IMG/VR virus record: IMGVR_UViG_3300027499_000011
Location: 1 to 42,732 of that record
DNA: 42,732 nucleotides
From: a virus
Strand: one strand, 5' to 3'
Shown here: one piece after another, positions 3,001 to 35,504 of the stretch
Layout: the number at the start of each line of letters is the position of its first letter
How positions within the stretch are numbered: position 1 is the stretch's first letter
The notes under the pieces: generated by a model
What the model saw: only the letters and a program-made list of their open reading frames with translations
Told to the model about the DNA's origin: nothing
Database searches by the model: none
Program-made: the position numbers and the translations under genes

Positions 3001-3943
3001 TACCCGCCTCCATACCAGCACCCGTAAGCAACTGACGGCTTACCCGACCAACCGTATTGATAGCACGCGCCCTATTTACTTGACCTGCAGCTTGTGTCAA
3101 TGCAGTTGCCGCCTGAGTAGCTGTAGTAGTAGCACCCAAAGCCGCTCCCTTTACAGCATCATCAACTATATTACCAGAAATTACTTTCTGTCCTCCTGTA
3201 GCAATCGACTTTAAAAGCTTTGCACCACGAGCAGCAATACCTGTAGTAGCTGCGGCTTGTACAGGAGCAGCAGCACCTAACGTAGCTGCACTTGCTGCTG
3301 TAAGGGCGGCTTCAGTTACGATGGCTCCAGAGATAAATGATAACCCTTTCAGGACATCATCAGTAAAACGCATACCATCGCTAAGCGCAGTTTCCTTATC
3401 CCGTAATTGGAAACGCTCTTCGGTAGCTTCAGTTACCTTGTCTAAAGAGTTAGATAAGCTATTATCGTATATGGCAGACAGGTCGCCTGTAACTAAAGCT
3501 TCTCCAGCACCATAAAACATACCAATGCCCTGTGCTGCATTGATACCCGTATTGAGTATAAACTTGGCGCCAGCATTGGTAATCTGATCTAAATAGGTTT
3601 GGCTTGCAGCAGCTGCTTTATTTGCTTGAAAGGGACTCTCATAGCTAAAGTTCTCAGCTACACCTTGGGTACCTCCCAAACTCAACCAGCCAATATCCCA
3701 TCCAGTTGTTTGATATTTATCAATATCCTCTGGGCGGTTATTGTAACCTGTGTATAAACCAAGTTTGTTTTTACCAGCATTATATACGTTGGTATTAAAT
3801 GCTCCTAAATCCAACTCCGTAGAATTGGTATTAGATGGTTTAACCGGAGTAGGTTGTCCAGATAGTGCTTGATTTATTTCCTCTGGAGTCGCATCTCCAA
3901 GGGGAGAAAGGTCGGGAGCACCTACTTCGTCGTCTTCAAACAT
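1..3943 (-). CDS. Very large virion cargo-type protein, C-terminus beyond window
   Basis: An open frame of 1,314 codons starts at ATG 3943 (sharing its A with the TGA stop of the upstream gene) and runs off the left edge, so the C-terminus is missing. Order within the visible part: a polar N-terminus; an Ala/Gly-rich, weakly hydrophobic stretch at about residues 200-300; a long charged helical region with likely coiled coil at about 700-930; a very acidic, probably disordered linker at about 940-1030; then a more globular segment to the edge. No catalytic motif is visible. In crAss-like phages, giant proteins in this position are packaged in the virion and ejected, and a virion RNA polymerase is encoded nearby. 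The cargo role is inferred from position and composition. Frame openness was checked closely at both ends and read through the middle. Confidence 0.8.
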   Translation of the reverse strand, partial: MFEDDEVGAPDLSPLGDATPEEINQALSGQPTPVKPSNTNSTELDLGAFNTNVYNAGKNKLGLYTGYNNRPEDIDKYQTTGWDIGWLSLGGTQGVAENFSYESPFQANKAAAASQTYLDQITNAGAKFILNTGINAAQGIGMFYGAGEALVTGDLSAIYDNSLSNSLDKVTEATEERFQLRDKETALSDGMRFTDDVLKGLSFISGAIVTEAALTAASAATLGAAAPVQAAATTGIAARGAKLLKSIATGGQKVISGNIVDDAVKGAALGATTTATQAATALTQAAGQVNRARAINTVGRVSRQLLTGAGMEAGMEARTVQATAIADRKAQHEMLYGPGSFTPEMEQQFKEENGQVFDAVFGTNLALVGIGNALLIPRVFGVGLNTGMKTMRTVSKSSLTDSQLNRASQFLNKTVADLPEYIPLNVVSPGRRALAASKYLRSPLYEGFVEEGGQGVISRTAEDYIADKYDAQGNIQAASLYDSFQNGLQQTYSSADGLKEIGMGLLIGTLGLPSFMVGGKFTSKYIGDPDSVTFDIGGKKIPYKAYGGIAGIKAEQVENDDRIRRVMGLMEKDPGTLEILRAESDNVRRQAVLSKQMSGAVDREDFKEAKDIEGDMLFSHASSKIVTGRYDMAVEEAEAIFRDMSVEDYRDFLGQDAALLSDEEVRRRKENTIRSYTENMARVKDAYAEASKIYRGEDPEVHAGIAKLIYDVKNRDAREKSIADGLANKLKDINGNQILDGLKLQQEFDISIDKVDELTRINQKIKNINKQLETKQARRIIKNVDEAKAAKREAELNKLAEELEALENRKTLIYNALNKFAPKVDAIDVNAEYTYDTDEFTRRLDTLLEMNDLLIRLGNTNTRADYDDIRKQFADLSRIVNDRMALVDAYNSLLEPGGYDKFIASMRSSIEKKITPNTNERAEALKDEYQQKEANEEILRDTTPPQDLAEEVPAESGVVVEDIYDFDTPDVVLDEEGEVVDVAVPEQDDIMDIIYDEELSDTDVLIPEDADAIDSVYTEDAPETLSPQEPTETQIGGVALVPQPENLVTDNSSPTTVNLTFSLTNATTGELKRDYPVDVLKGFNGKVLELRYIPANGSTLLNEAYGIFYNGQLVTLENPEWAAAILKPDQITALRNGYKLGIEVSDTRFMVNIVKTRQSVRDALGYAGELDLTANIGYQRKNGLVWRNGIQPGNLEDLQKSPGVRVIALKEQHTPEGQVTARPVTARLKGNKVEITTVQSMVAMFHTAAIFLGQYTPESVGMSQGAYEANLAMLRSMPQFNTDGNAFDQGAEAIADGLKKVFNTYIGNVDFDLD

Positions 3944-5409
3944 CAGAAATTGTTTTTAATATATTGGGTACCAACGAGGAAGCGTACTTGTTGTTCATCC
4001 AGCCCAGTAAGCTTTTGACCATTTAGCGTAAATGGTTCCCCACTTAAATTGTACATTCCAAATTTACCATTTTCTGATTTTACTTCGATACCAAGTATAT
4101 TATTTTTATATGTGGGAATCGTTCCAATCAAAAGTTTATTAAACTCAGTATCCATCCAAGCTGATGCTAAAAAAGGTGCTTGTGCTCTTGTTTCGCTATT
4201 GCTGCTATTCTGCAATTGCATAATAACTCCCCCTAAAGCACCTTCTCCCAGTGCTTGGCTTATCTCACCAATAGGAACAAGTGCAGTAAACTGTCCCTCC
4301 TGACCGTTTTGTTCGTAATTCACTTGAATAAGAGGTTGCCCTGTTTTAGGATCAAATCCTGTAGTAAGGGAGGTTTTTATATTTTTAGCCCCATTACCAA
4401 GGCTAACATCTTCATGTTTAAATCCATTTAATAAATTACCCTGATAATCCATTAGTCCAACTTGATTCCCTGCCCACAGGTTAAACTGATCATCAATCAG
4501 GCTGTTACTAATCCTATCGTCAATCACTGAATAAACTCTATCCGGTGCATCAGTATCATCTGTGACAACAGGCAAAGCTGCTACTACTGGTTCAGTTTCT
4601 ATAAGCTTCTTCATATCGGGAGAAAGCTGTTGTGCCTTACCCGCATTACGTTCTGCTATCTTCCTACGTCCAGCATTGAGAAGCTGGTCTTGCATCGTCT
4701 GTAACACACCCATCTGATCTTCTCCGCCCAACTCAATAAAGGGCTGACCAAACATCTGCTTAGACAAGTCGTTAATCTGCACACGTCCTTCAGGAGTATT
4801 CTGATACGCAGTCAATCCAGCACCCGATCCTAAGAACTCCTGTAATGCACCAATATTAGCTGTAACCTCTGAGTTACGATCAAATAGGTCCAGCATAGCC
4901 TTATCGTAGTCAGGTCTTCTGGTAGGGCCACCCATAAACTGTCTTGCTCTTCCTTCTTGGTCAAAGCTGCTGAATGTATACGGATCATGCCCAGAGTAAA
5001 CTACGTTCTCTGCACCGTGCATCATAGCAAGCTGACGTTCCTTCTCCTTTATCTCATTAACCAACTTACCGTTAGATACGACGGTTTGATAGTCGGCATC
5101 TCCCATAATGTTACGGGCCATATTACGAACTTGAAGAACTCTATTTTGAAAGTCCTTCTTTTCGCTTGCCTCGTCGATAAGGGATTTTACTTGTTCAAAA
5201 TAACCTTGAACATAACCTTTATCTCCTTCTGCGGAGTTTGCCATCTGTGTAGCTAAAACCGTTTGGAGTTTCCCTGCCTCTTCCTGAGCGGCATAGAACT
5301 GTCTATCCATACGATCATAGTAATCTTTTACAGCAGCTGTAGGGATACCAACCATAGTGGGCTGGTATTCAGCTAATGCAAAATCTCCGGGTATATACTT
5401 ACTCGCCAT
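3943..5409 (-). CDS. Conserved virion (cargo) protein, 488 aa
   Basis: The frame could start at 5475, but that would overlap the upstream gene by 65 bases. ATG 5409 lies one base after the upstream TAA and gives the N-terminus MASKYIPGDFALAEYQP, so it is preferred. The protein is soluble, helical in its first half (about residues 20-140, many Gln, Glu and Lys) and mixed or beta-rich later. There are no transmembrane segments and no enzyme motif. A protein of this type, with an N-terminal helical segment following a short Pro-containing lead, recurs just before the giant genes of crAss-like phages and is counted among internal cargo proteins. That comparison is from memory. It is translationally coupled to both neighbours. 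Confidence 0.8.
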   Translation of the reverse strand: MASKYIPGDFALAEYQPTMVGIPTAAVKDYYDRMDRQFYAAQEEAGKLQTVLATQMANSAEGDKGYVQGYFEQVKSLIDEASEKKDFQNRVLQVRNMARNIMGDADYQTVVSNGKLVNEIKEKERQLAMMHGAENVVYSGHDPYTFSSFDQEGRARQFMGGPTRRPDYDKAMLDLFDRNSEVTANIGALQEFLGSGAGLTAYQNTPEGRVQINDLSKQMFGQPFIELGGEDQMGVLQTMQDQLLNAGRRKIAERNAGKAQQLSPDMKKLIETEPVVAALPVVTDDTDAPDRVYSVIDDRISNSLIDDQFNLWAGNQVGLMDYQGNLLNGFKHEDVSLGNGAKNIKTSLTTGFDPKTGQPLIQVNYEQNGQEGQFTALVPIGEISQALGEGALGGVIMQLQNSSNSETRAQAPFLASAWMDTEFNKLLIGTIPTYKNNILGIEVKSENGKFGMYNLSGEPFTLNGQKLTGLDEQQVRFLVGTQYIKNNF

Positions 5410-5410
5410 T

Positions 5411-7843
5411 TTATTCAGCAGTTGTTTCGGTAGTGTATTGTGTGTCATACGGACGGTTAGCAGCATACAATGCATTCGCTAAGCCCGGCTGGTAGATATT
5501 CTTGAGGTAATCGCTTACTGATGCACTCAGGGTATTTAAAGGTGCAATACGCAAGTTAGCATCCATCATTTTACGCTCATTAGCAAAAGCTACAGAGTCT
5601 TTGATATACTCGTTACGCAAGTTATCATTTGCTAACCTTACGTTCGTAGCTAAAGCCTGATAAGATTGCTGTGCTTGCTGTCTTTGTTGTTGGTCGGCGC
5701 TACGTAGTCTTGCCTCTTGGTTGAATCGTTCTGCCAACATCCCTTGACGTAATGCAGCAGCCTGAGCCGAACTCAACATAGTATTCCGAGATTGAGCTAT
5801 AGTAGCATTACGGACATCTTGCAAAGCCTGTCCAATATTGCTCTCATATTCAAACTGCGGAACCATAGTCGTACGAGGAGCCTGAGGAGCCTGTAAGTCA
5901 GCTAAGGCATTACGAGCTACACGCGCACTTGCCATAGACGCTAAAGCAGGTATAGCTTGCATCCAAGACACTTTAGGAACATTGATTGTATCTCCTTGGA
6001 CTTCCTCAATATTCAATTGAGGAGCAGCCTTAGGAGCACCCATCGTTGCAGCAGGAGGAGCAGCGGTAATGAAACCCGGAGGAACTTGTATTCTTGGCAT
6101 CTCAGCTTCTCCCTGTGTTACATCCACAGTAGCCATATCTGTTACTCCGGGAATTGCAGGAGTCGTAACTTGATTCAACTCAACATCTGGAACAAGGCGG
6201 GGAGTATATTGATTCGCAAAAGATCCAGCCATAGAAATCCCCCGCATAGCATTAGTTCCCATATTAGCTACCTGTGTAGCATATTCAGGATTTACTGGCC
6301 CCAGTCCCAAGTTCAATATACCTGCCCTACTTGCGGAATCATCTCCATACAATATCCAATTAGGACGAGTCTGTACTGCTTGTGTAGAACGAACTAAGCC
6401 TGTAGAAGTAGAAGGTGCGCCTTGTGGTATAATTCTAACAGCACCTTGAACTCCTTTAGGGCCAATAGCAGGAAGACCTACTAAGTTTCCTATTAATCCC
6501 TCACTACGCAAGCGAGATCCTTCTGCAGTTGTTTCTGCATCGATAGGTTCTCCAGCATATTGTGCTCGATATTCGTTCCAAGGTGTAACTCCTTGAGTAC
6601 CCTTGCCCCTTTGAGTTGTAATAGTTCCGGGAGCCTTTGCAACTTGGTTAGATGCAGCAGTGAGTTTGGCAAATGCTGTACCCGGATTTGAAATTAATTC
6701 AGCAAGTGCATTAACTCCAGTTGAATAACCAGCAACGGATAAAACCTGTTGAATGTATGTAGGAGTACCTCCTGTATCTACGCTTGATTGAGATAAGGGA
6801 TTTTGCAATATTGTCCTCCAAGCTTCTGCTGTGGTCGGACGAGCATCTCTCGTATGGTTATAAGTATATGTAGTAGGTTTAGGATTGTTAACCCAAGATT
6901 GTGCCTGATCTGGAGGAACAGCGAATGCCTTTGAAGCAGATGGAGGAATAGCTTGGAATTGCTCTTGAATAGATTTGTTGCTATTGGGATTAACAAATCG
7001 GATATCTACAGCATTATATCCTCCTTGTGCGTTAGGAGCATATACGTAGTTCCCTTTCTTTTGTATCTCTCCAGTAATAGCTTCCCCTCCAAAACTTAAA
7101 ATAGGAGCGTATTGAGCTAATCCACTTGCAACAGCTTGTCTATTTGTCCTTGCCTCAGGCTGACCAGTACCAGTTTGTGCAAATGTTGGTGCAGTAGCTT
7201 GATTAGATACATTAGCACTTGACTGCCCATACCCGCCAGATGCAATGGTAGAAGGTCTATTTTGAAGCGGGGTATTGCTATATTGCTGTAGAACCCCAAT
7301 ATTAGTAGCACCTCTGGGAGCATCAGGATTCATCTTAATGCCCTCCATAACGTCTACAAGAGTATCTCTGTATGTTGGCTTTGTTGCATACTTTCCTAAT
7401 CCTTCAATAAATTCTCTTGGAGTATTTGCACGAAAAGCAGCGTCATAATTAGGTTGTGCCTTTAACCAAGCAAGTTGGGCTTTAGATGCAGCATCTAAAT
7501 TTGGAAAGAAGAAAAAATCCGAATTTCTTGATTCTTCTACACCATTAATTACTTCTGTTGTTTTTTTATTCCTTTTCTCATAAGGAATACCTAAGCTTTT
7601 AAAAAGCTCTGCATTTTTATCGTCATATTTAATACCAAAATAGTCGTCAGTACCACCACTTGTTACTTGCCAACCATTTTCTGTAGCCCACTGTGCTACA
7701 GCTACCTCTGGGAATGGATGACCAGCATTTACAGCAGCAGCATATATCCGCGCTGCATTACGACGCTTTTGCTCTTGTGTAAGCTCATCACCGGATGGAT
7801 TCTCCGGTGCTTCAACAAATCCCCCCGTTACGAATTTTTTTTT
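5411..7843 (-). CDS. Glucosaminidase-domain virion protein, read by -1 frameshift from the 208-codon ORF
   Basis: This frame opens inside the A10 run at 7835-7844, just after an in-frame TGA, and runs 810 codons to TAA at 5411. It has no ATG, GTG or TTG before ATG 7348, which would give a 645-residue fragment. The first 165 codons are clearly protein-coding. AVAQWATENGW contains the likely catalytic Glu (residue 259 of the fusion), followed by DDYFGIKYDD and, near the end of the domain, KYATKPTYRD. These align with QFAYESGWG, FGIK and GYATEPNYPQ of the neighbouring gene, so it is a second glucosaminidase-like domain. The rest is Pro/Ala/Gln-rich with a helical Gln-rich region near the C-terminus. 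A -1 shift gives a 1,014-residue fusion (8454 to 5411). Its role would be a virion-borne peptidoglycan hydrolase. Confidence 0.8.
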   Translation of the reverse strand, partial: KKKFVTGGFVEAPENPSGDELTQEQKRRNAARIYAAAVNAGHPFPEVAVAQWATENGWQVTSGGTDDYFGIKYDDKNAELFKSLGIPYEKRNKKTTEVINGVEESRNSDFFFFPNLDAASKAQLAWLKAQPNYDAAFRANTPREFIEGLGKYATKPTYRDTLVDVMEGIKMNPDAPRGATNIGVLQQYSNTPLQNRPSTIASGGYGQSSANVSNQATAPTFAQTGTGQPEARTNRQAVASGLAQYAPILSFGGEAITGEIQKKGNYVYAPNAQGGYNAVDIRFVNPNSNKSIQEQFQAIPPSASKAFAVPPDQAQSWVNNPKPTTYTYNHTRDARPTTAEAWRTILQNPLSQSSVDTGGTPTYIQQVLSVAGYSTGVNALAELISNPGTAFAKLTAASNQVAKAPGTITTQRGKGTQGVTPWNEYRAQYAGEPIDAETTAEGSRLRSEGLIGNLVGLPAIGPKGVQGAVRIIPQGAPSTSTGLVRSTQAVQTRPNWILYGDDSASRAGILNLGLGPVNPEYATQVANMGTNAMRGISMAGSFANQYTPRLVPDVELNQVTTPAIPGVTDMATVDVTQGEAEMPRIQVPPGFITAAPPAATMGAPKAAPQLNIEEVQGDTINVPKVSWMQAIPALASMASARVARNALADLQAPQAPRTTMVPQFEYESNIGQALQDVRNATIAQSRNTMLSSAQAAALRQGMLAERFNQEARLRSADQQQRQQAQQSYQALATNVRLANDNLRNEYIKDSVAFANERKMMDANLRIAPLNTLSASVSDYLKNIYQPGLANALYAANRPYDTQYTTETTAE

Positions 7844-7844
7844 T
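7789..7844 (-). promoter_or_regulatory. Candidate -1 frameshift/slippage site with downstream hairpin
   Basis: The minus strand reads ten A residues (7844-7835) at the end of the 208-codon ORF. The -1 frame has a TGA immediately before the run and the 0 frame has TAA five bases after it, so any shift must take place on the run itself. Codons AAA AAA AAT are a good tandem-slip substrate, and A runs of this length also promote RNA polymerase slippage. Twenty-five bases downstream is a perfect 7-bp stem, CACCGGA/TCCGGTG (7809-7803 with 7795-7789), with a 7-base loop. That spacing is longer than the usual 5-9 bases, so the hairpin's role is uncertain. Confidence 0.6.
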
Positions 7845-8454
7845 CACCCTTCATTGTGGGTGTGTATCCTCCGTACATATAACCTGCCATAGGGGTAGGT
7901 GCTGGAGGGTTGTATTGTAAGGGCACCATACCATACTGCATTGCATTATTGTAGTCTTGCAATACATATGGATTAGTGCCGATAGTACGAGGGCTAATTG
8001 TATTTAATTGACGCTGGTTGTAACGAGACAAGGCGAAATCCAAAAGTTGGTTTTGGCTTGGCATATTCTGGTACATAGCTGCCATCTGCATAGGATACAT
8101 AGGGGCAGGTTGTGTAGCAGATAACTGGCTTAATCCAGACAACAGGTTTCCTACATTACCACCTCCACGCATCATCGGAGGATTACCTCCATACATCATC
8201 TGCGGGGGCATTTGTTGTGCCATTTGAGCAGCCATCATAGGATCCATCTGCGGAGCCATAGCTTGCTCCTGTTGCATACGCATCCCTTCGTTAGCTTGGA
8301 TCAAAGCATCCATAGCCCGTTGTGCTTTTTCTAAATTCTTACGGGCAGTATTAGCCATCGGCCCTGATGGATATTTAGACAAAACTTCTTCCTGCTTACG
8401 GATGTAGTTAGCAATAGTAGTTGCTACTTCCGCGGGAGTTTGTTTTTTATTCAT
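7828..8454 (-). CDS. Met/Gln/Pro-rich protein, 0-frame product of the frameshift gene
   Basis: This 208-residue ORF starts at ATG 8454 in a 4-base ATGA overlap with the upstream glucosaminidase gene and stops at TAA 7828-7830. Residues 1-65 look helical. Residues about 65-105 are a low-complexity run rich in Met, Gln and Pro, and the end contains Gly-Tyr repeats (GYMYGGYTP). The last codons are GGT GAA AAA AAA AAT TCG TAA, so translation ends straight after the A10 run. It probably supplies both a short protein and the N-terminus of the 1,014-residue fusion. No enzymatic motif is seen. If the true run were 11 A, this stop would not exist and the two ORFs would be a single gene. Confidence 0.75.
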   Translation of the reverse strand: MNKKQTPAEVATTIANYIRKQEEVLSKYPSGPMANTARKNLEKAQRAMDALIQANEGMRMQQEQAMAPQMDPMMAAQMAQQMPPQMMYGGNPPMMRGGGNVGNLLSGLSQLSATQPAPMYPMQMAAMYQNMPSQNQLLDFALSRYNQRQLNTISPRTIGTNPYVLQDYNNAMQYGMVPLQYNPPAPTPMAGYMYGGYTPTMKGEKKNS

Positions 8455-10262
8455 CGTAACATATTTAAAATTGCCGAAGCATCAAATTTCATTGCATCGC
8501 TGAAGACATAACCGCCGTCTGCACCTTTAGTAGGTATACCACCGTTTGAATGTTTTGGGCCTACAGCTTTGTGTAACTGGCCTCCCATATTCATTTTTTT
8601 ATATGCACCAGTTCCCAAAGATACAGGTTTTTCATTAGGATTACTTAAAATAACCTCACCACCCTCCGTCTCATACTGGGGAATGGTATTCGGCCCACCC
8701 AACTCTTTTTTATTAGCTTGTGATATCATCCTATAAGTTGGATTCTTCATTAACATATCGTAAGCACTCGTAACCTGAGATTGTGCAGCAGGAGGTGTAT
8801 AAACCTGCATAGGATATTGCCGCTGACGTTTCTGAATAGTTGCCGCTATCCTCATTGCCTCTTGGGGATAGTTAGGTTCTGTAGCATATCCAGCAGCTTT
8901 TAATGCCTCTAAATATTGTTGCGGATTAGCTGCTTGACGTGCGGCTGCATAGCGTGGCTGATTGATAAACTCAGCATAAGCACGCATGCTATCTTCTAAA
9001 GTTGGGAAACCTAAAAAGACAGCATCTTCTGAGGTCTTCTTCCCGTTTACATATTCTCCTGTCTGTACCTGATCTCCAACTGAATATGGAATACCTGCTC
9101 TTTCTAAACGTGCTTGAAAAGTGGGATCCGCTTTAATGCCAAATACAGAGTTAGGAGCAGGTTGGTTATTGCCCCAGCCACTTTCGTATGCAAACTGGGC
9201 AGCTACGGCTTCAGGAAATCTCATTCCTAACTTTTGAGCCATCTGATACACCTCTTGGCTACGGGCAGCTTGAGCACGCATAACATCTTCCCAAGCTAAC
9301 TTACCCGCTTTATTGAGCGCATCTATATCAGTTCCCCACTGAGTATACTGTTTGGTGTATGTAGGTGGTTTGGGGGTAGGGCCGCCGTTATCCATTTTTA
9401 TAGCATCTACCTTACCACCATATTTTGCATATGGGCCAGCAGATGGGCCTCCCGTAGAATTGTAACCATACATAGCACGCTGATAGTCGCGCATTGCTCC
9501 AGTATTGGCAGCAAGTTGTGCGCTCCGTGTATCAGCTAAATTCTCGTGCCATTGATCTATTTGTTCTGCACGTTGTGTAAAAGCCTTTATACCTCCTGCG
9601 ATAGCCCCAACTGCTGTACCAATAGGGCCAAATTTAGATCCCTGCCCTGCACCTTGTAATGCGCTACCAGCTATGTTAGCAAAGGACTGTGTAGGAGCTT
9701 GGTATGCAGTACGCTCTTTCTCCATATCTTTTACCAACTCCCCAGCAAAGTTTAACCCAGCAGTTTTTAAAGATCCTAAAGCTTGTGCATTAGCGTGTTT
9801 GCCCAACACATCAGCAGCTTGACCCCCCTGAACATTCGTATATGTCGAGTTAATACGCGGTGATATGTCATTCATAAGACCATTCTCACGAATATTACTT
9901 AACTGATTTCTAAAGTCAGTTACATATTGACTACCAAAGTTTGGGCCTGAGGGAATAGTATTGGCAACTGGATTGGCTAATAAGCTGGAATCTGTATCGA
10001 GAACAGATCCAACTTTATTCATATCCATTTTAGGGGTAGGCGTATAACCGTATCCTACATTGGATATATCAGGATTTTGAGCAATACCTTCTTTAGAAAG
10101 AGGATTATTAGCCAGCTGAGGATTATTGTAAAAATTATTTAACTGCCCAGATTGCAAAAGGCCCATCCAATCCCGATACGTTGCATTATAATTATAAGCC
10201 CTATATTCCCCATATAGAGCATCAAGCTCTTGTTGAGATAACTGAGACCACCACTCGTTCAT
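8451..10262 (-). CDS. Virion protein with glucosaminidase (GH73-like) domain, 603 aa
   Basis: Predicted to cleave the glycan backbone of peptidoglycan during DNA entry. Residues 1-190 are polar. Residues 196-226 are Ala/Gly-rich and could insert in a membrane. The glucosaminidase-like domain spans about 330-485, with AAQFAYESGWGNN (likely catalytic Glu360), NSVFGIKAD at 371-379, TGEYVNGK and GYATEPNYPQEA at 458-469, the hallmarks of FlgJ/LytG-type domains. The C-terminus has GGEVILSNP and VGPKHSNGGIPTKG, a Gly-His-Gly pattern I recall in other crAss-like virion proteins. It sits between small basic genes and the frameshift gene, which carries a paralogous domain. TAATG and ATGA overlaps couple it to its neighbours. 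The protein is much larger than an endolysin, which argues for a structural location. Confidence 0.85.
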   Translation of the reverse strand: MNEWWSQLSQQELDALYGEYRAYNYNATYRDWMGLLQSGQLNNFYNNPQLANNPLSKEGIAQNPDISNVGYGYTPTPKMDMNKVGSVLDTDSSLLANPVANTIPSGPNFGSQYVTDFRNQLSNIRENGLMNDISPRINSTYTNVQGGQAADVLGKHANAQALGSLKTAGLNFAGELVKDMEKERTAYQAPTQSFANIAGSALQGAGQGSKFGPIGTAVGAIAGGIKAFTQRAEQIDQWHENLADTRSAQLAANTGAMRDYQRAMYGYNSTGGPSAGPYAKYGGKVDAIKMDNGGPTPKPPTYTKQYTQWGTDIDALNKAGKLAWEDVMRAQAARSQEVYQMAQKLGMRFPEAVAAQFAYESGWGNNQPAPNSVFGIKADPTFQARLERAGIPYSVGDQVQTGEYVNGKKTSEDAVFLGFPTLEDSMRAYAEFINQPRYAAARQAANPQQYLEALKAAGYATEPNYPQEAMRIAATIQKRQRQYPMQVYTPPAAQSQVTSAYDMLMKNPTYRMISQANKKELGGPNTIPQYETEGGEVILSNPNEKPVSLGTGAYKKMNMGGQLHKAVGPKHSNGGIPTKGADGGYVFSDAMKFDASAILNMLR

Positions 10263-11006: not shown

Positions 11007-14000
11007 TCAACGGGCACTCAATCGTGCGTTTGCTGTAACCTCGTACAAATATAGTAAAGCTTTGACATCAGCGTCTCTTACCTTGCCTGTTTCTAAGCGC
11101 AGTACGATATTATCACTTATAATATTTCTTTTCTCGTAATAAGGTTTATTAGGATTAAGATTAGAAGTTATAAGTTGACCGTCCAATGACATCGTTGGTT
11201 CATCCCTATCCGAGATAATATCACGGAAAGCATTGAATTTCCAACGTCCTTCTTGCAATCTTACCGTACCAATTGGAACGCCTAACTGTGGATCAGGTTC
11301 GTAGAGTGCTACATAGCCGCTATTGTGCGTATCTGTAAAGACCAAGGCATAATCGAAGTTGTACTTATACTGATTATGTAAAGCCCCATTAGCAGGAGAG
11401 AAGGTATCATCAAATACTGTAATACCACCAATTACTCTTGGGTTCCAATAAGCTTTTGCAATCCACTCAAACGATCTCCAATGTGCAGCTTTAGGCGCAC
11501 CAAATGCAATGTCTATAGATGCTTTAACATCAGCCTCAGGTAAAACCTTTGGGGAGTTATAACGATATACTTTCTGCGGGCCAGCATTTTGGATACCATA
11601 CAAGCCATCTAATCCTCCAATAAGAATATCAGCATTATAATTATGGAAGGATACCCAAGCATTATTGTCAAAGCTAAAACTGATGTAAGTATCCTTAGGT
11701 GCCCACTTCCAAGTCTGAGGGTCACTAATAACCACGTTATATGGGCTAAGACCTGAGTTTAAAATATAGCCGTATGTATAAAGTTCTTCTTGTGTATTAG
11801 GGAATCTTGCAGGTGTTACATCCTTGCTTGTGGTATTCCTAATAAACAATACAACACGATTGGTCTTCTCATCATACGCAGCAGCTACACCATTCATAAA
11901 GCTATGGGTAGCTGTAAGATTACTACCTCCTAATTCTGTAGGGTAATCGTAATTCGCACTTGTAGAGAATATATATCTCCAAAATCCTTTAAATATATCT
12001 AACTCTCTATTGAAGAAATCCCGCATACCATTGGACGAGATTTCTTTTAATTGACCATTATAGAGAAATACCTTCTTACGTGCTAAGTCAACAAAGAAGT
12101 AACCAGCAGGTGTAAGAACACAGGCAGCTTTATTCTGCGTACCAGCATATCCAAACTCTGTAGTAAGGATCTCTTGAGGACGTACATCGAATATATCCCC
12201 ATCACCAAGTGCAGCTACACCACTTGTAGTAACAATCTTCTCCTTGCCGCTTGTGATGTATAATGACTTCTCGTGATGAATAAGAAGCTTATCTCCGTAG
12301 TCCTGAAGATTGGTAATCGGCCCTCTATCTTTTGGCTGCTCTAAGTAATCTAATGGGGCAAACTCCCGAATAGTCATACGTGTACTATCCGGTTGGAATG
12401 CTAAGCTTCTGTGTATACGGTAGGGGAACTTATTTAACTGAGGGTCGTCGGCATTGTAAATCAGAGGTTGCTGCCATTGATTAAGCTGCAAGAAGTCGGA
12501 CTTAAAGGTATACTCGTTATTTTCTTCTGGGCTTGCTGGTCTATATACAAACTCCCAATCATTCAAGTTGGTTTGGTATGTATCTCTGAATAAGTGGTTA
12601 TAAGGCGTGTATACTGAGTTGTAGTAAACTGTAGAGATAGTACCTGTTTCTGCATCTACAGTTCCCGCTCCACCTGCTATTACCCCATCTGTAGCTATGT
12701 ATCCCCAAGTACCATTATTTGCAGATTGATCATTAAATCTTGCATTAGCCCCCATAGGAGCAGTAAGCCTAAAACGATACATAGATCGTATTACATCACC
12801 TACAGTATATCTTGGACGATGCCAAATGCTATTATTGAAATCTGTATAAACTCCCCTACGAGGGTATGAGAAATTAATAGGATTTGCTTGATTAAATTGC
12901 ATACTGCCACACGCAGGAGTACAGGCTACTAAATCCTGAAGAGTATATCCTTCATAGCAATTTCGCGCAACTCGATTGTAGTTACCAACCATTATTGGCT
13001 GCCGCGGTACTTGATTACTTGCAATAGTAGTTACATCTAATAATATTCCTTGCTCTGCAAAATTCCAAGTATTCTCTCCAACATTACCAATAATATTAGG
13101 TATGTTTTTATACGTATATTCTAAACTCTGCAACAACTCTTGCCCATTAGTATACTCGCCAAAGTCGTTAATTTGTAAATTACCATTCCACAATGAAACC
13201 ATAGATTCCATACCGTAACGGTTATCGAATCCTATTTCATCATCTACATTATTAGACGCTACATATTTATTTTTAGCTATACCTAAAATCTCACAGGTAT
13301 ACGGAATTTGTTGCGATATAAACCCTCCATTTAAAACACGAGGTTGGAATATTGCTTTACGTTGTTTGCCATATATGCTTTCTGGATCTGTTGGCGCATC
13401 ATCTTCAGGATTTCGAGCATAAAAAATAGGTTCCTGATCTGTACGTAAACCTATTATATGGTTTTGATCAAAATCTCCATTTACGGCATCGTAGTAACCT
13501 TCCACATCTGCAGATTCACTTTGGATATAGTGAAATACTTGTTCTCCCTTAAAATACATTGGCCCCTCAATACCCGGCTTGTCTTTAATCATTCCAAACT
13601 CTGGGCTTATACCACACTCAAGTCTTATGTAACTTGAGTAAGAATTGGTACCATAATTTGGGTCGCCACTAAAATTCCATTTATTTTTAAAATCCGTAGA
13701 TGCAGGTATAAAGTTCTCATTGTTAGAAGAAACATATGAGTTTCTAACCCATAAGTTATATGTCGTTTGGCTATAGTGTTCTCTATTGCCGCCGCCATTA
13801 CCAAACTCTGCAAACCAGTTAGGGCTACCGTGTATTACTGGGCTTGTACCTTGAACGATACAGTTAGATCCAGTACGCTTAGCATAATAAAAACGGACGC
13901 CTTGATATCCAGCCGGTATATCTACATTGTGAAAAACCAGCTTTAAACGGGGGTTCTTTCTATCGTTCCAATCATATCCCATCTCTTTAAGCCAAGAGAT

Positions 14001-15671
14001 ACTTGGCATACGATGGTGTGATACGGGTTTATTTGCAATCTCTACTTGTTCTGTCGGTACTGTGCCAATACTTAACGTATCATACAAACTATATTCCCCA
14101 AGATTTAAAATCCAACTTAGTGGATGTACTGTTTGGTCGGGGAAGTTTGCGGGATATAACTCGTCTTGGTTTTGCCAAATACCTAAAAGTCCTTTAGTTG
14201 GGCCTTCTGCACTACAAATAGCAGTACAGCGACCCATCCAGTATTTACCCCCTTCCCCAAAAATATTCTTATCTATATTTAAAAAATTCATCAACCCCAA
14301 GTAGTTGGGTTGAGTAGGAACAATATTAGAATCCAGAATAGTCTGTAACGAGTTATTTAAATTTATCTCATAATAGTTTTTAGCTAATGCATCTGGATGA
14401 TAATCAATATTGTAAGGAGCACGATATGTAACCAAATCAATCTCTTCCCCAATCACACCCGCATTTAAAACATTAGTAAGGATAGGTCTGCCGGGAATAT
14501 GGTATGCTGGGCTATATGATCCATCATCACGAATAAATGAGACATACAAAGCATATACCTCGTCGGGCATAAATCCAGTATTCTCAGGATACCCTACTTC
14601 ATCCAAAGATTCGTCTTCGGTTAAGTATGTTTCTTCTGTAGCATGATCTTCTGGCGTATTATTATCTATGATATGATATTCAGGCCATATTGCATTTGCT
14701 ATTTCTTGTAAAGAAACGTCTTCTTTAGTTTCTAAGTTAGCGATATACAACCGATTATCGTGCATCTCCATAGAGCCTACACGAGTATAGCTCTGAGGCA
14801 TAACGGTAATATCCTCCAGAGTAAGTTCTTCTAACGTAATAGCACCAGTTAAAATTCTTGTACTGATGGTATATGGTGCTGTACTTATTGTGCTTGCGGT
14901 ACTAAATCTCTGAACAACACGTACAGAGATTTGATTATTGATAACACTTAGTAATACAACATCAAGGAACTTATGGGATCGGCCTACATTTTCTAATCGA
15001 ATGTTTAAGCCGTTGTTATTGCCCCTTACATAGAAAGGGCCAGCCAAATCTGTAACCTTAGTTACACCACCATCGTCTGTGATATAGCGTGTACCAACAA
15101 AGTATGCTCCTTCAGCTAATTCACCTCCCGTCACACTATTGCCCGTTATCTGAACACTATTTATTTGGGGGAACAAGTAAAGGTCTTTGCCATCAAAGAA
15201 CTCACCATATACTCTATCAATATTTACAATCTTAGGAGGAGCATAGCCGTTAGTAAACACCACATATCTATCCCCATTAAAATACTTAAATGATACTACG
15301 TCAAAGTCATCAAACCGACTGAAATCAAGAGCGAAGTAGTTATTTTCAGTTTGAGCTAAAACTTGGGTAAACTGAGAACCTATCGGTGCATTAGGCCGAT
15401 AAATCCATATAGAACCTAAATTAAAATCAATACCGGGTATAGGAGAGACAAGGTTGCTTATCGCAAATACAACCCACTCCCCATCATCTAAAACGTGTAC
15501 TCCAAGAATGTGATTGTTGAATTGAGAAAACAATCCATAGAACTCTGCACCACTCTCCTGAATAAGGGCATCAAGTTGTTTCCCATAAATAAAGTTGTAA
15601 GCCCGACGGTAGGTTCCATCGGGCTGATTCTGTGGAGAAACGTCGGTATTTATTCCTTTAACAGGTTTCAT
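11007..15671 (-). CDS. Muzzle-type large tail protein, 1,554 aa
   Basis: The longest complete gene in the window. The N-terminus MKPVKGINTDVSPQNQPDGT, followed by an Arg-rich Tyr-Arg-Arg-Ala-Tyr-Asn stretch, matches the opening of the large tail proteins of crAss-like and other Bacteroidota podoviruses. A later segment (about residues 1190-1240) has FGYAGTQNKAACVLTPAGYF, then VDLARKKVFLYNG and an ISSNGM phrase, also typical. The protein is rich in Tyr, Asn and beta-strand-like sequence with no transmembrane helix. In the phage crAss001 virion the protein of this type forms the muzzle at the distal end of the tail. It follows the ring-protein gene with a 4-base ATGA overlap, which supports the assignment. 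The precise structural name is inferred from order and length. Confidence 0.82.
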   Translation of the reverse strand: MKPVKGINTDVSPQNQPDGTYRRAYNFIYGKQLDALIQESGAEFYGLFSQFNNHILGVHVLDDGEWVVFAISNLVSPIPGIDFNLGSIWIYRPNAPIGSQFTQVLAQTENNYFALDFSRFDDFDVVSFKYFNGDRYVVFTNGYAPPKIVNIDRVYGEFFDGKDLYLFPQINSVQITGNSVTGGELAEGAYFVGTRYITDDGGVTKVTDLAGPFYVRGNNNGLNIRLENVGRSHKFLDVVLLSVINNQISVRVVQRFSTASTISTAPYTISTRILTGAITLEELTLEDITVMPQSYTRVGSMEMHDNRLYIANLETKEDVSLQEIANAIWPEYHIIDNNTPEDHATEETYLTEDESLDEVGYPENTGFMPDEVYALYVSFIRDDGSYSPAYHIPGRPILTNVLNAGVIGEEIDLVTYRAPYNIDYHPDALAKNYYEINLNNSLQTILDSNIVPTQPNYLGLMNFLNIDKNIFGEGGKYWMGRCTAICSAEGPTKGLLGIWQNQDELYPANFPDQTVHPLSWILNLGEYSLYDTLSIGTVPTEQVEIANKPVSHHRMPSISWLKEMGYDWNDRKNPRLKLVFHNVDIPAGYQGVRFYYAKRTGSNCIVQGTSPVIHGSPNWFAEFGNGGGNREHYSQTTYNLWVRNSYVSSNNENFIPASTDFKNKWNFSGDPNYGTNSYSSYIRLECGISPEFGMIKDKPGIEGPMYFKGEQVFHYIQSESADVEGYYDAVNGDFDQNHIIGLRTDQEPIFYARNPEDDAPTDPESIYGKQRKAIFQPRVLNGGFISQQIPYTCEILGIAKNKYVASNNVDDEIGFDNRYGMESMVSLWNGNLQINDFGEYTNGQELLQSLEYTYKNIPNIIGNVGENTWNFAEQGILLDVTTIASNQVPRQPIMVGNYNRVARNCYEGYTLQDLVACTPACGSMQFNQANPINFSYPRRGVYTDFNNSIWHRPRYTVGDVIRSMYRFRLTAPMGANARFNDQSANNGTWGYIATDGVIAGGAGTVDAETGTISTVYYNSVYTPYNHLFRDTYQTNLNDWEFVYRPASPEENNEYTFKSDFLQLNQWQQPLIYNADDPQLNKFPYRIHRSLAFQPDSTRMTIREFAPLDYLEQPKDRGPITNLQDYGDKLLIHHEKSLYITSGKEKIVTTSGVAALGDGDIFDVRPQEILTTEFGYAGTQNKAACVLTPAGYFFVDLARKKVFLYNGQLKEISSNGMRDFFNRELDIFKGFWRYIFSTSANYDYPTELGGSNLTATHSFMNGVAAAYDEKTNRVVLFIRNTTSKDVTPARFPNTQEELYTYGYILNSGLSPYNVVISDPQTWKWAPKDTYISFSFDNNAWVSFHNYNADILIGGLDGLYGIQNAGPQKVYRYNSPKVLPEADVKASIDIAFGAPKAAHWRSFEWIAKAYWNPRVIGGITVFDDTFSPANGALHNQYKYNFDYALVFTDTHNSGYVALYEPDPQLGVPIGTVRLQEGRWKFNAFRDIISDRDEPTMSLDGQLITSNLNPNKPYYEKRNIISDNIVLRLETGKVRDADVKALLYLYEVTANARLSAR

Positions 15672-34076: not shown

Positions 34077-35504
34077 TTACGACTTAACGCACTCTAAGTG
34101 GAGGCAGTTAGTAGCACGACGAATCGCGATACCACACTCCTTCATAAAGTGAACGCTCGATCCATCCACGTCAGTTGCGCGGGTGGCGTTACCTGCAAAG
34201 CCCGGAGGAACAGTAGCACCAGCAACTGCCCAACGAACCAGCTCACGGCCCTTCCGAGAGATGTACTTGATGTTCTTCTCACCATCGTAAGTAGACATAT
34301 CAAGGAACACCATACGGTAAGATTCCATCGGCAGACCAGTAACCGGGTGGCGATCAGCATTCAGTGCACGTGCGCCGTGGTCAAACAGGGGCAGGTGACG
34401 AACAGTAATCGTGTGACCGTCGATGTGCTGGTAGGTAGTGAAGAAGCCACCCATCACCAAGTTAGAACCGCTGCCAGAGACGAATGCGTTCTCAGGCGTG
34501 TTCTTGATGTAGTTGCCGCTTCCGACTTCCTGCTTCATAGCGTTGTCAAACTCTTCCAAACCACCAATACCCGTGAAGAGTACGATGTTCATCTTCTGAG
34601 CGTCAGATGCTCCGTACAGGGCATCACGGACAACAGCCTTCAACTTCTGGGCGGTGAGGGTAGAGTAGGTATCCACGTTCGGGATTTGCTCCAGAACGCC
34701 AGATCCCAAGCTAATCGGCTTACCGTTGTCATCCTTCAGGTGGATGATACCATTAGCGTCACGGTTGTATTGCGAGTACCACAATGCGTATTCGGTCTCT
34801 TCTTTCCAACGCAACATGTGCTGGTATTCCTCGAAGTCATACCACAAGTTGGTAGTACGTCCACCAACATTGAACTGGAAGTTGACGACACGATCCGGCA
34901 TGTTACCCTCGTATGCGTAAGACTTACGGATAAGAGAGATTTGGTTCCGCATTTTGGACGGAGCAACCCAATGGCTTTCGTTACCACGCGATCCGCTCAT
35001 TGCAGCCGGAGCGTACAACTGAACGAACTGACGGTTAGCTAAGGCAGATGCACCAACACCTGCACCATCGCTTGCAACGAGCTGGCAAGAGTACTCGTAT
35101 CCTCCAGCAACTGCCTTCGGATCATCCATAATACGGAGCTGAGTGCCTTCCGAATCCTCGATGATGTATTGACGAACAAACCAACGCTCAGGGAACGTCA
35201 GAACAATACGCTGGTGGTTAGCACCCGTTCCAGCTTGAGCAGTACAAGGGAGTGCCTTGTTCAACCGACCCATAACCGGGTAGTCGTACTCAATGTCATT
35301 AATGTAGTTAGTAGCGCCCATACCTTCCGTCAAGAAAGAAAGCGGGAAACGCTTGTCCTCCTGACCAGCCAGATGGGTAATAACGGGAGACAGAACATCC
35401 GGTTGCGTCAAGAGAGCCGCAGCCAAGGAGTTCTCATCGGTCATAGAAGACGAGTTGAATGTGTCTTCATACAGCCGGAGCTTTTTTAAGTTATCAGCAG
35501 ACAT
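34077..35504 (-). CDS. Major capsid protein, 475 aa
   Basis: Forms the icosahedral shell. The length fits the crAss-like MCP (about 490 residues, HK97 fold). The N-terminal region with DENSLAAALLTQPDVLSPVI and RFPLSFLTEGMGATNYINDI, followed by YDYPVMGRLNK, is what I recall for this family; the E-loop and A-domain elements follow. The coding sequence has higher GC and a preference for C-ending codons, as expected for the most abundant protein. It follows a scaffold-like gene, carries the 15-base leader motif, and is followed by an intrinsic terminator. A 314-codon antisense frame on the plus strand is a codon-bias artefact. Confidence 0.9.
   Translation of the reverse strand: MSADNLKKLRLYEDTFNSSSMTDENSLAAALLTQPDVLSPVITHLAGQEDKRFPLSFLTEGMGATNYINDIEYDYPVMGRLNKALPCTAQAGTGANHQRIVLTFPERWFVRQYIIEDSEGTQLRIMDDPKAVAGGYEYSCQLVASDGAGVGASALANRQFVQLYAPAAMSGSRGNESHWVAPSKMRNQISLIRKSYAYEGNMPDRVVNFQFNVGGRTTNLWYDFEEYQHMLRWKEETEYALWYSQYNRDANGIIHLKDDNGKPISLGSGVLEQIPNVDTYSTLTAQKLKAVVRDALYGASDAQKMNIVLFTGIGGLEEFDNAMKQEVGSGNYIKNTPENAFVSGSGSNLVMGGFFTTYQHIDGHTITVRHLPLFDHGARALNADRHPVTGLPMESYRMVFLDMSTYDGEKNIKYISRKGRELVRWAVAGATVPPGFAGNATRATDVDGSSVHFMKECGIAIRRATNCLHLECVKS

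Follow-up and report, generated by a model that had tools for sequence, protein, structure and literature searches.

Comparison with related contigs shows that two open reading frames meeting at a run of ten adenines (A10) in the DNA of a crAss-like phage are one gene, predicted to encode one protein of some 1,014 residues, and that the split at A10 is a singleton. The split is most probably a homopolymer indel, an estimate that covers jointly a sequencing or assembly error and a real allele produced by replication slippage, and the aligned loci do not support a conserved programmed frameshift site. We infer both the indel as the cause of the break and, should the run be real, its rescue by slippage. 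For annotation, the two ORFs are best treated as one cargo-type hydrolase gene. The window, by which we mean the whole stretch of 42,732 nucleotides that was analysed, encodes a Crassvirus MCP (PF23898, E 1.4e-86) and a portal protein (phrog_6547, E 1e-123), and these matches bear out the crAss-like assignment made in an earlier, sequence-only reading of this DNA.

The frame junction at A10

The junction lies on the minus strand, where A10 occupies positions 7835-7844 in the context GGTG-A10-TTCGTAACGGGGGG. The features of the locus are as follows.

11007..15671, minus strand: P0005, a 1554-aa structural protein in the muzzle position (phrog_15100, E 4e-25)
8451..10262, minus strand: P0003, the upstream gene, 603 aa, with a glucosaminidase domain of its own
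7828..8454, minus strand: the 5' ORF, 208 aa, with a conserved N-terminal domain of ~64 aa and a Met/Gln/Pro-rich linker
7835..7844, minus strand: the A10 homopolymer, the point of frame change; no other A/T run in the window is longer than 7
7789..7809, minus strand: a perfect 7-bp stem with a 7-nt loop, 25 nt 3' of A10, judged incidental
7337..7738, minus strand: glucosaminidase domain PF01832, residues 36-169 of the 3' frame, E 2.5e-9
5411..7843, minus strand: the 3' open frame, 810 codons, with the glucosaminidase domain, a variable middle and a conserved C-terminal cargo-like domain
3943..5475, minus strand: P0004, the next gene downstream, 510 aa, which by gene order occupies the place of crAss001 cargo protein C2

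The 208-aa ORF closes at a TAA (7828-7830) a few bases past A10, and in the -1 frame a TGA (7844-7846) is followed by 810 stop-free codons down to 5411. A slippage-prone sequence is therefore present at the frame junction, with A10 lying between the stops of both frames, and these stops limit the break to the run itself or the four bases after it. The layout described in the sequence-only reading was confirmed with its coordinates exact, as was its claim that the frame changes within the A run itself, with the four following bases added to the interval. Equally sound was its observation that the first 165 codons of the -1 frame contain no ATG, GTG or TTG: the first such codon is the ATG at 7348, codon 166, and the codons upstream of it offer ATT and ATA only. 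The glucosaminidase-like domain that it recognized in this start-less stretch corresponds to the PF01832 match, which scores 38.3 bits against a curated cutoff of 30.2 and lies almost wholly ahead of the first start codon.

These findings bear on the idea that the locus contains two separate genes, the second of which begins at the ATG at 7348 and leaves the glucosaminidase stretch untranslated. A 645-aa ORF with an ATG start does exist, but the 165 preceding codons are stop-free and encode a recognizable enzyme domain, and in relatives the frame runs continuously through this region. We consider two separate genes extremely unlikely.

Long A/T runs are avoided in this crAss-like clade, and the A10 of the window is exceptional. 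A third-order Markov model predicts 0.17 A/T runs of at least 10 per window, and synonymous resampling of the window's coding sequence predicts 0.095 A runs of this length. The related contigs, about 0.3 Mb in which a few loci overlap or are near-identical, contain 2 A/T runs of at least 8 (20 expected) and none of at least 9 (7 expected); the longest was 8. The shortage is consistent with slippage at such runs in these phages or their hosts, and the strong avoidance of runs of 8 or more provides a small independent sign of their cost in this clade.

One continuous gene in related contigs

To find relatives, we located contigs via the MCP and then scanned them for P0002. The relatives carry a single continuous gene in the same place, between P0003-like and P0004-like genes, of 853-1236 codons where complete. 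The N-terminal 64 aa of the 208-aa ORF share 51-57% identity with the start of the relatives' continuous protein, and the C-terminal ~199 aa of the 810-codon frame share 35-44% identity with its C-terminal part. Because both ends match one continuous protein, the two ORFs are one gene, and the earlier proposal that together they specify one fusion protein holds.

A scan with a profile of the N-terminal domain recovered 12 contigs. In eight of these the gene is unbroken from N to C terminus (L098, L099, L100, L101, L102, L105, L106 and L109, with L100-L102 closely related), and in L104 and L107 it is open as far as the contig extends. The frame breaks at other places in 2 of the 12 (L103/G016 and L108). 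L108 is missing one base, outside any homopolymer, relative to the open L107 at 99.7% identity, and its break looks like an assembly error. The break in G016 falls at L096:5784-5830 and that in L108 at about 7280, both at sites with no long homopolymer. Across relatives, the longest A run in this gene is 7. The frame transition is unconserved, since all unbroken relatives are continuous. Alignment of relatives had been put forward as a check on the recoding proposal, and it spoke against it: every unbroken relative found carries an in-frame fusion without the run. The reading of this metagenomic locus as a two-product gene is weakened accordingly by aligning relatives, the nearest usable of which share 35-57% identity with the protein across its conserved parts.

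Several further searches were made for closer or more distant matches. A direct IMG/VR search, which possibly did not cover near-identical records, did not recover this junction in any record with a different run length. Contigs whose MCP is 95-100% identical are, by length and layout, too short to span the junction. Single-protein searches with P0001, P0002 and P0005 gave no confirmed relatives, and a profile scan with the downstream gene gave no contigs beyond those already known. GTDB genome scans and a DNA search of a phage collection had no match; a protein search of that collection produced only two lysozyme-like matches, in Synechococcus phages. A PDB sequence search yielded no useful match, and scanning the window against Rfam and for tRNAs gave nothing.

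Origin of the frame break

In the explanation that we favor, the gene would specify one protein of ~1,014 residues, in which a Met/Gln/Pro-rich linker connects the conserved N-terminal domain to a peptidoglycan-hydrolase module, followed by a C1-like C-terminal domain. An indel in the A homopolymer would break its frame, either as a sequencing, PCR or assembly error or through slippage during phage replication. If A10 is real, slippage by RNA polymerase would create a heterogeneous population of mRNAs, some of them encoding the full-length protein, and this partial expression would make the break leaky. Transcriptional slippage at runs of this length is well precedented, so that some full-length protein would probably be restored in this way; since long runs appear costly in the clade, leaky expression of the gene is then probable. 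A survey of frame transitions expects homology-validated singletons to reflect errors and not genuine indels, and it asks for a conserved site before a transition is taken as programmed (PMC3711429). This scheme and the other indels in the gene are why we place error and recent allele together at so high a joint probability, which like the other probabilities given here is judged and not calculated: one-base indels of non-programmed look occur in the same gene in other contigs, and we count them in favor of an indel. Counting against it, the stops of the two frames lie close to A10, one on either side, as at some recoding sites.

In Citrobacter rodentium tssM1, an A11 run supports 20-25% frameshifting to the full-length product, and both products are needed (PMC4256274). 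The window gene is like tssM1 in having a poly-A run shortly ahead of a premature stop and in reaching its full-length protein only via a frame change at the run. However, slippage and the need for both products are proven experimentally for tssM1, whereas the window gene is known from sequence alone. In Thermus dnaX, an A9 run gives about half slippage (PMC1088944). Frameshifted poly-A genes persist in Blochmannia, and the window gene resembles such genes of Blochmannia and Buchnera in having one A-tract indel in a gene that is otherwise intact and open in relatives (PMC3017870). Those genomes, however, are rich in long A tracts, which the clade of the window avoids. A further likeness is to the phage tail G-GT and the capsid and tail Ig-extension proteins, phage structural proteins with a longer, frameshifted form (PMC5009743). 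By contrast with the window site, which is found in one contig, these cases depend on ribosomal frameshifting, and conservation of the lambda-type tail case extends widely across long-tailed phages.

We next weighed lineage-specific programmed transcriptional slippage, in which A10 is retained because RNA polymerase thereby supplies the 208-aa N-terminal protein alongside the 1,014-aa cargo hydrolase at a ratio useful to the phage. By published cases the length of A10 is sufficient (PMC4256274, PMC1088944), the 0-frame stop lies shortly after the run, and the frame beyond it is conserved and free of interruptions. No other A/T run in the window exceeds 7, and the clade avoids long ones; an A10 is exceptional in such a clade, and a longer run that keeps the frame would be even more so, which gives some weight to a functional use. 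However, the run and the split are present in no relative, the short form would end before the hydrolase and the C-terminal domain, and the relatives have no ORF layout that would yield such a form. We regard this kind of slippage as unlikely, and it keeps some weight because the nearest usable relatives are no more than 35-57% identical in this protein's conserved stretches. Were it true, and the odds are well against it, slippage specific to this lineage would set the ratio of truncated to full-length virion cargo hydrolase. A fixed A10 with a function would, within the literature searched, be without precedent among crAss-like phages. Among papers on Crassvirales and on frameshifting, represented largely by their titles and the opening of their abstracts, we found none on slippery frameshifts in crAss-like phages; in one Crassvirales paper, the term frameshift refers to sequencing errors.

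The hairpin downstream of A10 had been proposed as part of a device that sets the ratio of two products. Its stem is indeed a perfect 7 bp and lies 25 nt downstream, but it is not special: the window contains 48 stems of the same kind (1.1 per kb), and the region folds no better than its shuffles (z = -0.77). Hairpins that stimulate -1 frameshifting usually lie 5-9 nt from the slippery site, and 25 nt is too far. On the grounds of its ordinary frequency, its fold score and its long spacing, we rejected the hairpin as a frameshift stimulator. With the hairpin ordinary and the unbroken relatives in frame without the run, the claim of a designed ratio of products lacks support.

The same observations bear on a programmed -1 ribosomal frameshift on A AAA AAA, stimulated by the hairpin. 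The heptamer is in the correct phase (GA A AAA AAA AT), and heptamers of this A-rich family are shifty in E. coli (PMC4066793). Against it stand the distance of the hairpin and its chance-level frequency and fold, the absence, by eye, of a Shine-Dalgarno-like element at the usual upstream distance, and the lack of conservation of the site among relatives. In addition, transcription slippage is expected to outweigh ribosomal frameshifting in a homopolymer this long. A ribosomal mechanism is therefore very improbable.

Gene neighborhood and predicted function

The genes in the window are ordered P0005, P0003, the split gene and P0004, followed by an ORF, 1,318 codons or longer, that leaves the window. 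The stop of P0003 overlaps the start of the 208-aa ORF (ATGA). In crAss001 the corresponding order is muzzle (gp44), cargo C1 (gp45), cargo C2 (gp46) and an RNA-polymerase-associated protein (gp47) (PMC10172136). By gene order, the split gene thus lies between the muzzle-position gene and those in the C2 and RNA polymerase positions, a slot that it shares with P0003. Comparison of P0004 with gp46 did not establish homology. The C-terminal part of the split gene's protein gives weak, co-linear matches to p-crAssphage gp47, with E 6e-5 and a probability of 65%, and to the gp45 family, with E 6e-4 and a probability of 30%.

Judged from these comparisons, the protein of the split gene resembles C1, the crassvirus cargo protein, and carries an exchangeable peptidoglycan-hydrolase module. 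Shared gene order and the weak C-terminal similarity link it to C1 (crAss001 gp45; p-crAssphage gp47), whereas the hydrolase module and the presence of P0003 in the same slot set it apart. The functions of C1 may be divided here over P0003 and the split gene. As its position and domains suggest, virions probably contain this protein and eject it to breach the cell wall.

The module that follows the N-terminal domain is a glucosaminidase in the window. Among five relatives tested, it is GH19-like in three (L090, L094 and L098, of which two score slightly below the curated cutoff) and contains no recognized domain in L091 and L109. As far as domain matches indicate, the gene has a modular hydrolase slot whose content varies across relatives.

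P0003 and its relatives share a conserved C-terminal motif (...EVI...YVFSD...) that by eye is like the portal-bound part of crAss001 gp45, with a profile score that is not significant. The glucosaminidase domains of P0003 and the adjacent split gene are 35% identical over ~140 aa, so that neighboring genes of this phage may encode a pair of related wall hydrolases. Finally, the MCP of the window (34077-35504) is 84-87% identical to that of contigs whose cargo-type proteins share 35-57% identity in their conserved parts, a contrast which suggests that the cargo genes are diverging fast or have been exchanged.
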